Shown in pieces: positions 32,298-48,010 of a stretch of DNA of 64,000 nt (within the stretch, counting starts at the first letter, position 1; each line of letters begins with the position of its first letter). The position numbers and the translations under genes are program-made. The DNA is taken from contig NZ_CP039889.1 of assembly GCF_005221325.1 (NCBI RefSeq), positions 124,001 to 188,000 on the forward strand. Reading direction: 5' to 3'. Source of the stretch: Agrobacterium tumefaciens (lineage in GTDB: Bacteria > Pseudomonadota > Alphaproteobacteria > Rhizobiales > Rhizobiaceae). The notes beneath the pieces are model-generated. The model was not told where the DNA came from. It saw nothing but the letters and a program-made list of their open reading frames with translations, and did not search any database.

Positions 32298-32388
32298 TTC
32301 TTGGCAGGATCAATAATGCATGTTATCGGTATCATTGCAAGTCTGATCTACAGAACTGTTGCATCGGGCATTCATTCGGGAGGAAACC

Positions 32389-32709
32389 ATGTACACACGC
32401 TCGGCAATTTTCGAAGGCAGGATACACCCCGGCCGGGAGGAGGAGTTTTTCCGTATCGTCGAGGAGAAATTGCTGCCGGTCTGGAAACGTATGCCGAATG
32501 CGCAGGCCGTGCGGGTGATGCGAACCGAGCGCACCGACCCGGATGCCGCCTCGATCATCATGGTGCAGGAAATCGACTATCCTTCGATGGAAGCGGTGGA
32601 GGAAGCACTGGCCTCGCCAGTCCGGCTGGAAGGCCGGGTGCTGACGGACGAGATGATGAGCATGTGCGACGGACGTTTTTACCATCTGGTCTATAGCCGC
32701 GTCGCATGA
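32389..32709 (+). CDS. Small dimeric alpha/beta-barrel-like protein
   Basis: 106 residues. RSAIFEGRIHPGREEEFFRIVEE at the N-terminus and a repeated beta-alpha-beta layout resemble the ferredoxin-like dimeric alpha/beta barrel superfamily (EthD/ABM type). No function can be assigned; such proteins often act as small isomerases, oxygenases or ligand binders next to catabolic genes. ATG 32389 has GGGAGGAAACC upstream. It is divergent from the binding-protein operon and upstream of the LacI gene, with its own hairpin terminator. Confidence 0.75.
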   Translation: MYTRSAIFEGRIHPGREEEFFRIVEEKLLPVWKRMPNAQAVRVMRTERTDPDAASIIMVQEIDYPSMEAVEEALASPVRLEGRVLTDEMMSMCDGRFYHLVYSRVA

Positions 32710-44525: not shown

Positions 44526-44644
44526 AATCATTCTGTTTGTGGCGTGGATGCCTCTTATGCGGCATTCGCTGCGGAAGCGCGACCTATAAGAGCGCTAGGA
44601 GCCTGCACCTTGTTGCCTTCCCCGGTGCGAGAAGGAACACGGCA

Positions 44645-45607
<963 letters not shown>

Positions 45608-45985
45608 CGTCTTATTCTCTTTCTAAACTCATAGGGTCCGGCGCCGTTTTTGATTGCGGCACGCGAATGATCGGCAAAGCCCCAGCGCCTCTGCCCCGAC
45701 AGGAGAAGAAGGCTGTAACACTTTGAATTTTCATGCCAGCCTATTGCGCCAGAATGGCGAAAGACTGGCGTTCCAGGGGGCGAAAGATGCTCCACGGTGA
45801 GGTTCTCCGACCCCTTACCCGGATGAAAACCGAACCGAATCAACTGCTTCGCTATAGAGTGGTGATAGCCGAAAAGGCACGCCGTTTACACTCCATTCAC
45901 TATGTTTATCTCACTTTGGAACGAGTTGCGCTAAGAAGTGTTTGCTTGCCGACCGCGCTGAGGCGCACGGAATGGAGGCAGGCAT
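45608..45985. other. Gene-free region with a possible EcfG-type promoter
   Basis: No convincing gene in 378 bases. It should contain the ftsZ1-like promoter (minus strand). GGAAC at 45918-45922, 16 bases, then TGTT at 45939-45942 resembles the general-stress sigma factor EcfG/RpoE2 promoter (GGAAC-N16/17-CGTT) in the direction of the receiver gene. Confidence 0.4.
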
Positions 45986-46429
45986 ATGTCGGCAGACGTC
46001 TTGCAAAACGAACCGGGTTTCCGCACGGAGCAGCCGCGCGTGCTGATCGTGGAAGACGAGTTTCTCATTGCCATGGATATCGAGGATTCGATTTTGCAGG
46101 CGGAAGAAGAGGCCAATGTCATCGGTATCGCCAACCGGCTGGATCAAGCCGTGGCGCTCGGTAGCCGTGCCGATATCGCCTTCGTCGACGTCAACCTTGC
46201 CGATGGACAGACCGGCCCGGAGATCGGGCGGCGTCTCTCGGAAGATCACGGCGTCGTGGTGATCTTCATGACGGCAAACCCTGAAGTTGTCGTCAATCTC
46301 GGCATTGGCGCCGGTGTGATCGCCAAGCCCGTGCCGCAGGACGCGGTCGAACAATGCCTCTCCTACGCGCTTGCCAAACGCGCTGGCACCCATGCCGTAA
46401 CGCCCATCGGCATGATGGCTTTCGACTGA
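45986..46429 (+). CDS. Single-domain response regulator receiver protein
   Basis: 147 residues, essentially one receiver domain: acidic pair VEDEFLIAMD (about 20-30), phospho-acceptor Asp in IAFVDVNLADG, Thr in IFMTANP and Lys in VIAKPV. There is no output domain, so it acts as a phosphate sink or protein-binding regulator, like other CheY/SdrG-type proteins of alphaproteobacteria. ATG 45986 follows GGAGG. No histidine kinase gene is adjacent. A possible EcfG promoter upstream suggests a link to general stress. Confidence 0.88.
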   Translation: MSADVLQNEPGFRTEQPRVLIVEDEFLIAMDIEDSILQAEEEANVIGIANRLDQAVALGSRADIAFVDVNLADGQTGPEIGRRLSEDHGVVVIFMTANPEVVVNLGIGAGVIAKPVPQDAVEQCLSYALAKRAGTHAVTPIGMMAFD

Positions 46430-46456
46430 GAGATTGCCTGAAAACGAAAGAAAAGC

Positions 46457-46640
46457 CCGAAAACAAAAAAGCCTGCCGCGGGAGGAGGTGCGGCAGGCTT
46501 TCTGAAAAGATGAACAGCGATATGGGAGGAGGAAAACCGCTGTCCCCGGGGCAATCCTTTGGGAGGAGGAGTAGGATCACCCGCATTACCGAAAGGATGT
46601 GGGAGGAGGTACATCCGTTTCGATGATTGGAAGATAGCAT
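46457..46640 (-). ncRNA. Four-hairpin CCUCCUCCC small RNA locus (CcsR/cuckoo-like)
   Basis: On the minus strand four hairpins follow each other, each with CCTCCTCCC in the loop: plus coordinates 46595-46616 (stem GGATGT/ACATCC), 46550-46581 (9-bp stem), 46512-46545 (7-8 bp stem) and 46469-46500 (11-bp stem AAGCCTGCCGC), the last followed by TTTTTTGTTTT. In stems 2 and 3 some pairs are G-U on the minus transcript but A-C mismatches on the plus transcript, so minus is the coding strand. A -10-like CTATCT (plus 46632-46637) would start transcription near 46625. The loops match the anti-Shine-Dalgarno motif of the CcsR/cuckoo RNAs, which in Rhodobacter also follow a DUF1127 gene. Confidence 0.8.
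46469..46500 (-). terminator. Terminator hairpin of the small RNA locus, anti-SD motif in its loop
   Basis: AAGCCTGCCGC and GCGGCAGGCTT form an 11-bp stem, loop ACCTCCTCCC on the minus strand, followed by a T-run. On the plus strand it may also stop transcription of the receiver gene that ends at 46429 (short GGCTTTCTG tail). Confidence 0.8.
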
Positions 46641-46858
46641 TTTTCTGCGCGTTTCACAGGCACAAGGTTGCAGCACAGATATGCGCCCCGCGCATGGCGA
46701 TTTTTCCGATGGAAAATCCCGTCGAATATTCGCAGAAGGCTGCATGATCCTGACGGCGGAACGTAGAAAGCCATTTGCCTGCAGCACGAGAAAACTCCGC
46801 GCGTAATCACCGGCATCGCCAAGCTGGAGAACCAGACAACGAAGGGTCCAAAAACAAA

Positions 46859-46879
46859 AACGCCCGCGAGGCGGGCGTT
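46859..46879 (-). terminator. Rho-independent terminator of the DUF1127 gene
   Basis: AACGCCCGC and GCGGGCGTT form a 9-bp stem with a 3-base loop; on the minus strand GTTTTTGTTTTTGG follows. It lies 31 bases past the DUF1127 stop and about 230 bases before the small RNA hairpins. Confidence 0.85.
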
Positions 46880-46910
46880 GAAGCATTCATAAGTGACGAT
46901 ATCGCCTGTA

Positions 46911-47057
46911 TTACTTGCCGACGGCGGCGCGTGCAACGCTGGTGATCTGGCTGCGATCGATACCGAGATCGTGCAGTTCACGGGTGCTCATACGGCCCAG
47001 TTCGTTGATGGTCTGACGATATTTGCGCCAATTATTAAAGCTGCGTGCTACGTTCAT
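46911..47057 (-). CDS. DUF1127 mini-protein
   Basis: 48 residues, MNVARSFNNWRKYRQTINEL at the N-terminus and ELHDLGIDRSQITSVARA, the DUF1127 (YjiS-like) pattern: basic, Arg-rich, no membrane segment. Such proteins in Rhodobacter (CcaF1) and Agrobacterium are linked to RNA metabolism, stress and phosphate or motility phenotypes. Too short for most gene finders. ATG 47057 lies behind AGAAAGGGTC. In Rhodobacter the CcsR small RNAs lie directly downstream of such a gene, as here. Confidence 0.88.
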   Translation of the reverse strand: MNVARSFNNWRKYRQTINELGRMSTRELHDLGIDRSQITSVARAAVGK

Positions 47058-47274
47058 GACATGACCCTTTCTGAGGTTTAGGTGACGTCAGTAACGTTTT
47101 CGTTCCGGCGTCCTTTGATGCCCTCTATATGCGCCTTTCGATAACGAATTAACAGGCAGAATAAGGCAATCCACCCATGCGCTGCGTGCAAGGGTTCCCG
47201 TTCACCTCTTTCCCGAAAATGAAGGGCGGCTGAAAATTCAGCCACATGGAGGGGACGTCTACACGCCCCGCGCC

Positions 47275-47877
47275 TTAGAACTTGTGGCGCACGCCGAAGA
47301 CGTTGGCGTTTGTCGCACCCTTCATATTGCCCAATGTCTTGCCACCGCCTGAGCGGTGGTGAAGGCGCCAGAAGAATTCCGTCGAGGAATCCTCGCTGAA
47401 GGAGACGTTGATTTCAGGCCCGAGGTAAAACAGGACGTTGGCGTTACCATCATCCTTGATTTCCTGCTCACGCTCGCGGCCCGGCTGTGCGTCCGTGACG
47501 AGACTGAGGCCGGCGGTAAAGCTCGGCGTGATAAACAGCCGCTCACCGAGCCTGATCTGCTCGTAACGCGCGACCGGGCCAGTCCACACCTCGCCGGTGA
47601 AGCCTTTACCGAATCTTGCAGCAATGCCGATTTCGCCACCCAGTTTCACATTGCCGAGACTATAGGGATAAAACTGGTAACCGCCGCCCAGAATGGCATT
47701 CTTTTCGTATTTCACGGGAACAAGGGCAGCGCTTTTCAGCATGTCTTCTTTCGTCAGCACACCACCGAAACCGAATATCGCCTCGCTCGTCTCCGAAGCC
47801 ATATCTTCCGATGCCAAAGATGGTGTCGCGGCCAGTGCGATCATGGCCGCCAGCGACAGACGTGCTGCGATATTCAT
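47275..47877 (-). CDS. PagL-like outer-membrane beta-barrel protein
   Basis: 200 residues with a Sec signal (MNIAARLSLAAMIALAATPSLA). Alternating hydrophobic strands and a terminal ..FGVRHKF ending in Phe indicate an eight-stranded outer-membrane barrel. The FFWRLHHRSGGG segment resembles the His-x-Ser motif of lipid A 3-O-deacylase (PagL/acyloxyacyl hydrolase fold), but the following Asn is Gly and the catalytic Glu is not obvious. Enzymatic activity is therefore uncertain. ATG 47877 follows AGGAG; monocistronic, with a small palindrome GGCTGAA-AA-TTCAGCC at 47228-47243 downstream. Confidence 0.65.
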   Translation of the reverse strand: MNIAARLSLAAMIALAATPSLASEDMASETSEAIFGFGGVLTKEDMLKSAALVPVKYEKNAILGGGYQFYPYSLGNVKLGGEIGIAARFGKGFTGEVWTGPVARYEQIRLGERLFITPSFTAGLSLVTDAQPGREREQEIKDDGNANVLFYLGPEINVSFSEDSSTEFFWRLHHRSGGGKTLGNMKGATNANVFGVRHKF

Positions 47878-48010
47878 TGTGCTACTCCTGAACAAAGCCC
47901 TCTTTTACCCAGCCGTCTCATAGGCATATTCCCGCAAGGCGAACATACCGTTACCGAACACAATTAATTCAACTCGTTCGGAAATGACGGGAAACGGGCT
48001 TTTTCGCGGT

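Follow-up and report, generated by a model that had tools for sequence, protein, structure and literature searches.

The window, the whole 64-kb stretch of DNA, corresponding to contig C2:124001-188000 of its genome, contains a minus-strand small RNA locus flanked by two protein-coding genes. A gene for a small DUF1127 protein (46911-47057, minus strand, 48 aa; PF06568, 60.3 bits) lies upstream, where the earlier note had placed it, and is followed by a predicted intrinsic terminator (46855-46879, minus strand; terminator scan). On the other side, a gene for a response-regulator receiver protein (45986-46429, plus strand; PF00072, 33.1 bits) converges on the RNA and is a neighbour outside it. 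A gene for a short FtsZ-like protein (44645-45607, 320 aa; PF00091 and PF12327) was also identified near the RNA locus. The RNA itself carries four minus-strand copies of CCTCCTCCC at 46480-46488, 46524-46532, 46561-46569 and 46601-46609, with motif starts separated by 40, 37 and 44 bases in RNA order, in agreement with the places and the 37-44-base spacing originally described. The motif occurs five times in the window, against a mean of 0.52 and a maximum of 2 in 100 dinucleotide shuffles. The fifth copy, which reads GGGAGGAGG at plus-strand position 32435, falls within an ORF (32359-32709) and belongs to no cluster.

Folding of the minus-strand RNA (46455-46625) gave four hairpins (-64.3 kcal/mol, z -5.35), all motif copies being unpaired and each loop displaying CCUCCUCCC in the RNA. 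The plus strand was less distinctive (-61.8 kcal/mol, z -2.79) and folded without the four motif loops, which upholds the proposed strand and the placement of every motif in a hairpin loop. Likewise, the G-U pairs claimed for stems 2 and 3 on the minus strand were present, two in each, together with one outer G-U pair in each of stems 1 and 4. Numbered in RNA order, the hairpins occupy 46590-46622, 46549-46582, 46512-46544 and 46468-46501 on the minus strand, each containing the correspondingly placed motif copy; fold and alignment support all four. The 3'-most of them, hairpin 4, leads into TTTTTTGTTTT on the minus strand and was confirmed as the intrinsic terminator with a T-run that had been proposed. 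With ends predicted from the family match, the fold and a conserved start, CATCGAA (46619-46625), the RNA spans 46464-46626. The earlier note had given one RNA of ~170 nt as one of two possibilities; conservation suggests a start at ~46625-46627, and the RNA would then measure about 160-165 nt. Processing of the RNA into smaller units is possible by analogy with the three-loop SmelA075 of Sinorhizobium meliloti, for which shorter forms without one or two stem-loops have reportedly been inferred.

A covariance-model search, suggested in the earlier note as a check, matched Rfam family ar14 (RF02344) at 46464-46588 over the whole model (1-123) with 97.2 bits, against a gathering threshold of 58.8. 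The ar14 model comprises three hairpins, as do ar14 RNAs as published, whereas four are present here and hairpin 1 falls beyond the match. Two further ar14 loci were found in the same genome, both three-loop, and the four-loop locus scored third-best of the three. The idea that four loops go beyond known forms did not survive, as Reinkensmeier et al. in 2011 (PMC3927594) set a four-hairpin family, RFMSmelA099, apart from the three-hairpin RFMSmelA075; the same paper also mentions a two-hairpin SmelC201 and proposes one family for the varying forms. Four consecutive hairpins with CCUCCUCCC in each loop, the hallmark of RFMSmelA099, are what we observed at the locus. One RFMSmelA099 member, sRNA L5 of A. 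tumefaciens C58, is described there as verified by deep sequencing and Northern blotting (PMC3927594).

The locus is very probably an ortholog of L5, judging by family, replicon letter and the single four-loop locus of the relevant genome rather than by L5 coordinates. That genome, G007, is taken by us to be A. tumefaciens C58, which fits with the position of its three-loop locus, C1:109493-109578, whose end falls just short of C1_109596F, a C58 coordinate given in print upstream of cspA. Its single exact four-loop locus lies on C2, flanked by a DUF1127 protein and a response regulator that are 95.8 % and 94.6 % identical, respectively, to those of the window. In L001 (1521-1852), a three-loop ar14 RNA ends shortly ahead of a cold-shock gene leader, and the published C58 'cspA thermosensor' candidate C1_109596F would begin ~2 bases past the three-loop RNA end, if G007 is C58. 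Membership of the family can go together with silence, to judge by S. meliloti, where only one of six ar14-type copies is described as reliably detected.

Mapping the motif across relatives revealed that the four-loop form is widespread within the genus. Clusters of three motifs were present in 39/39 genus genomes searched (reversed control 0/39), and overlapping triples, equivalent to four motifs, in 32 of the 35 genus genomes for which all matches were listed, G013, G019 and G021 being the exceptions; the conservation of four loops that had been put forward as a check is thereby borne out. Two kinds of locus were apparent. C-type loci, that of the window among them, sit between a DUF1127 gene and a response regulator; D-type loci lie at other places, and 5/19 of them (L041, L042, L051, L062 and L065) were preceded by a similar DUF1127 gene. 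Forty loci were fetched, of which 36 contained four exact motifs and four contained three; L046, L063 and L072 each had one altered loop and L071 was without the terminator hairpin, and a further C-type locus (L077) also had one altered loop. In a family-wide sample, triples were found in 43/61 genomes, or 41/59 without the two genomes of the window's genus, and four-motif clusters outside the genus in 6/59 (G047, G052, G066, G069, G084 and G085). Thirteen named loci with a response-regulator homolog 81-98 % identical to that of the window and an adjoining motif cluster belonged to Agrobacterium and 'Rhizobium' (R. rhizogenes, R. nepotum and Rhizobium sp. RM), and none of 67 response-regulator homologs outside Agrobacterium (L087-L153) had two or more exact motifs within 3 kb flanks. 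The RNA family is modular, four loops being one of its states, and in this genus the four-loop form is a conserved branch rather than a local oddity; the Rfam ar14 model covers only three of its four hairpins.

Several genomes displayed multiple clusters. G047, from another genus, contained four separate four-motif clusters, and five Agrobacterium genomes (G023, G024, G026, G027 and G034) contained two or three four-loop loci each. In G073 and G077, three consecutive three-motif clusters at intervals of ~165-175 bases look as if entire three-loop RNA genes had been duplicated in tandem. A 316-kb plasmid record of A. pusense (CP135083.1) matched window positions 44600-48000, a stretch comprising the FtsZ-like gene, response regulator, RNA and DUF1127 gene, with 93 % coverage and 85.3 % identity; it may be a genuine copy on a plasmid or else part of a chromosome under a wrong label.

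Structural conservation was assessed in an alignment of 37 four-loop RNAs (18 C-type, 19 D-type). Loci were picked by exact motifs and the invariance of the loop motif in the alignment is therefore partly a product of selection. Alignments and box counts did not include L046, L063, L071, L072 and L077, which have fewer than four exact motifs, nor the other named loci, L074-L076 and L078-L086. Single-sequence folds placed four motifs in hairpin loops in 35/37 RNAs, with L052 and L062 as exceptions. The RNAalifold consensus of both types contained 35 pairs, eight of them changed on both sides, with hairpin 2 appearing only as a fragment because C- and D-type stems align poorly, whilst D-type sequences alone yielded all four hairpins with 42 pairs, 12 of them changed on both sides. 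Flank identities to the hairpins of the three-loop paralogs, of which only two sequences were available, were compared with a shuffled baseline (mean 0.31, 95th percentile 0.41). Hairpin 4 matched three-loop hairpin 3 (0.74 in C-type, 0.77 in D-type) and hairpin 3 matched three-loop hairpin 2 (0.44 and 0.53). Three-loop hairpin 1 was matched by hairpin 1 at 0.50 in D-type and 0.37 in C-type, by hairpin 2 at 0.40 in C-type and 0.45 in D-type, and by D-type hairpin 3 at 0.46. As the best flank matches pair off hairpins 4, 3 and D-type hairpin 1, hairpin 2 may be the extra hairpin relative to the three-loop paralogs, a weak indication. Simple addition of a hairpin at the 5' end is not favoured, the CATCGAA start being common to both three-loop paralogs.

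The region ahead of the RNA was conserved over a short distance. Across 16 C-type loci (L053 and L054 were left out of this profile), mean column identity was 0.78-0.98 within 90 bases upstream of the first motif and 0.42-0.46 beyond 120 bases. The conserved block contains a putative -10 element, TATCTT (46631-46636, minus strand); it went undetected in an E. coli-type promoter scan, which returned no sites. Further upstream lies a VtlR/LsrB-type box, GCATATCTGTGCT (46672-46684, minus strand), which follows the pattern GCAT-N3-TG-N3-T and, at ~-46 to -58 from the predicted RNA start, sits in the expected interval near -60 to -45. It forms the core of an upstream dyad at 46670-46695, its upstream arm reaching 46695, and a terminator-like plus-strand site reported by the terminator scan at 46680-46696 is read as part of this dyad. 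The RNA box was present in 18/18 C-type loci, its distance constant to within one base, and a second VtlR/LsrB-type box, GCATGGGTGGATT (47168-47180, minus strand), precedes the DUF1127 gene, also in 18/18 C-type loci. Of the D-type loci, 13/19 carried the exact box in place and 6/19 had TC instead of TG, L042 having a box at another place, whilst the two three-loop paralogs displayed GCAA instead of GCAT. The box fixes only 7 of 13 positions, and its background was 0.26 per kb per strand in oriented loci, the sites themselves included.

Elsewhere in the same genome, the box was present in the upstream region of abcR1, a gene directly preceded by a LysR gene, and at DUF1127 locus L208, and was absent from abcR2, a third ar15 locus and DUF1127 loci L209, L210 and L211. 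A pattern derived from ar14 loci alone produced five genome hits at up to one mismatch, one of which was the abcR1 upstream region, and 46 hits at up to two mismatches against 14 for the reversed control, so that many of the weak hits are noise. In print, the VtlR/LsrB box GCAT-N3-TG-N3-T is placed at -61 to -49 in the abcR1 promoter (PMC7486931, PMC8844928), and the Agrobacterium VtlR study is described as having tested abcR1, abcR2 and atu1667 (PMC7486931). Our box pattern fits those tests if L208 is the atu1667 ortholog. In Brucella, control of AbcR2 and of three DUF1127 proteins has been attributed to VtlR, and against the Brucella motif as given in the same source (PMC12595884) the D-type box agreed at 13/15 positions, the window DUF1127 box at 12/15 and the window RNA box at only 9/15. 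For NfeR1, a three-loop ar14 RNA, LsrB is reported as an indispensable activator. Searches of a literature library turned up no publication that links the four-loop RNA with VtlR.

Candidate targets were sought as Shine-Dalgarno sites of the form GGGAGGAG-N4-11-ATG, of which the genome contains 53, against nine for the reversed pattern. Start sites were extracted for 49 of these 53 matches, L239 being one of the four left out, and removal of 13 with ORFs below 100 aa and of L178 (which shares its site with L177) left 35 distinct ORFs with a length of 100 aa or more. Solute-binding proteins accounted for 13 of the 35 ORFs and other ABC transporter parts for three, and by our reading 13 of the other 19 encode metabolic enzymes. 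A control Shine-Dalgarno sequence, GAAAGGAG, gave 27 matches against 11 reversed and 14 ORFs of at least 100 aa, amongst them no solute-binding proteins and three ABC transporter parts. The difference in solute-binding proteins (13/35 vs 0/14) had a p-value of 0.0098 on these small sets, and that in all transporter parts (16/35 vs 3/14) was not significant (p 0.19). The earlier proposals of anti-Shine-Dalgarno loops, a cuckoo-type relationship and many possible mRNA targets are supported. The same GGGAGGAG sites could also be open to the two three-loop paralogs, that is, to any of the three ar14 RNAs.

We considered three other readings of the locus. The earlier note had likened its layout to that of CcsR, in which case the RNA would derive from the 3' UTR of the DUF1127 mRNA through processing by RNase E, assisted by the DUF1127 protein. 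The close position of the DUF1127 gene upstream, in the same orientation, is in keeping with this, as are the DUF1127 genes upstream of some D-type loci and the precedent of CcsR in Rhodobacter sphaeroides, where the RNAs are described as cut from the 3' UTR of ccaF1 (PMC10253847, PMC8625941). Nevertheless, in 18/18 C-type loci a strong terminator stands between the DUF1127 gene and the RNA, although some read-through is possible, and a separate conserved region with a box precedes the RNA. On this sequence evidence a single operon with a shared 3' UTR is not what we found; the CcsR-type layout is set aside, a CcsR-like origin appears quite improbable, and the RNA and the DUF1127 gene look less like an operon than like adjacent genes under a common regulator.

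Alternatively, the RNA could be driven from RpoH-type promoters under heat or oxidative stress rather than by VtlR/LsrB, the GCAT box being a leftover or the site of another factor. The loosely defined box, with its TC variants in D-type loci and GCAA in the three-loop paralogs, an unclear -35, the empty E. coli-type scan and the reported rise of three-loop SmelA075 after a heat shift all leave room for such a stress sigma factor. Set against these are the presence of the box in every C-type locus, in an upstream region otherwise poorly conserved beyond 120 bases, its distribution between abcR1 and L208 on the one hand and abcR2 and L209-L211 on the other, in line with the VtlR tests in print provided that L208 is orthologous to atu1667, and the recovery of the abcR1 promoter among the five hits of the ar14-only pattern. 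We regard stress-sigma-factor control as doubtful. A titration function, in which the four loops would serve above all as a decoy, by imitating the anti-Shine-Dalgarno end of 16S rRNA or by sequestering a protein, and would damp translation broadly, draws on the observation that loop number differs between loci whilst the motif does not. RNA loops and the 16S anti-Shine-Dalgarno core also both contain CCUCC. Direct pairing with single mRNAs has, however, been described as demonstrated for the three-loop relative NfeR1, and titration as the main role seems very unlikely.

Our best explanation, to which we assign a probability of roughly 0.8 as a whole, is that the locus encodes a trans-acting ar14/SmelA099 ('cuckoo') small RNA of ~160-165 nt on the minus strand, activated by VtlR/LsrB and blocking Shine-Dalgarno sites. 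A VtlR/LsrB-type LysR regulator would activate both the RNA and the adjoining DUF1127 gene, and each loop would pair with GGGAGGAG-like Shine-Dalgarno sites and thereby block the ribosome on many mRNAs, mainly those encoding solute-binding proteins or enzymes of catabolism. Rather than conferring four specificities, the four loops probably duplicate one another as binding sites within a single RNA, by analogy with NfeR1, which is reported to pair with the ntrB start region through redundant motifs, three in number, and to need LsrB; four loops might then provide more binding capacity per transcript. The presence of the box before both the RNA and the DUF1127 gene offers a simple, testable rule for the conditions under which these anti-Shine-Dalgarno RNAs are produced, and would add to the regulon described for Agrobacterium VtlR. 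The broader proposition, that the main anti-Shine-Dalgarno small RNAs of Agrobacterium (AbcR1, the three-loop ar14 RNAs and the four-loop RNA) and small DUF1127 genes, including the neighbour of the four-loop RNA, are all driven by a single LysR regulator, VtlR/LsrB, is one we hold to be evenly balanced. If true, a single redox/metabolic switch would set translation of nutrient-uptake mRNAs and DUF1127-dependent control together.

Amongst known systems, RFMSmelA099 and L5 correspond most directly to the locus, with four consecutive hairpins, CCUCCUCCC loops and variable stems; no difference was found, the comparison being with the family description rather than the L5 sequence. L5 lies on the C58 linear chromosome, and the genome taken as C58 has one four-loop locus, on contig C2. 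The four-hairpin kind of RNA was thus already known, and what looks new is only the hint of which regulator switches it on. NfeR1 (Smr14C2; PMC10746234, PMC7143759) resembles the locus in Rfam family, loop motif and terminator hairpin, and has a similar CATCGAA 5' start and upstream LTTR-type box as described. It differs in having three hairpins rather than four, in a box given as TGCA-N6-GCAT and in a reported NtrC site, which its source says is not evident in Agrobacterium. AbcR1 (ar15, RF02345) belongs to another Rfam family, yet is like the RNA in the anti-Shine-Dalgarno-type seed use and transport targets attributed to it in print, and in the VtlR/LsrB box that precedes abcR1 in the same genome. 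CcsR1-4 of R. sphaeroides share with the locus CCUCCUCCC-type anti-Shine-Dalgarno loops, two per RNA according to PMC3927594, and a DUF1127 neighbour; they are described as four two-loop RNAs from the ccaF1 3' UTR, in contrast to the one four-loop RNA with its own upstream region found here.
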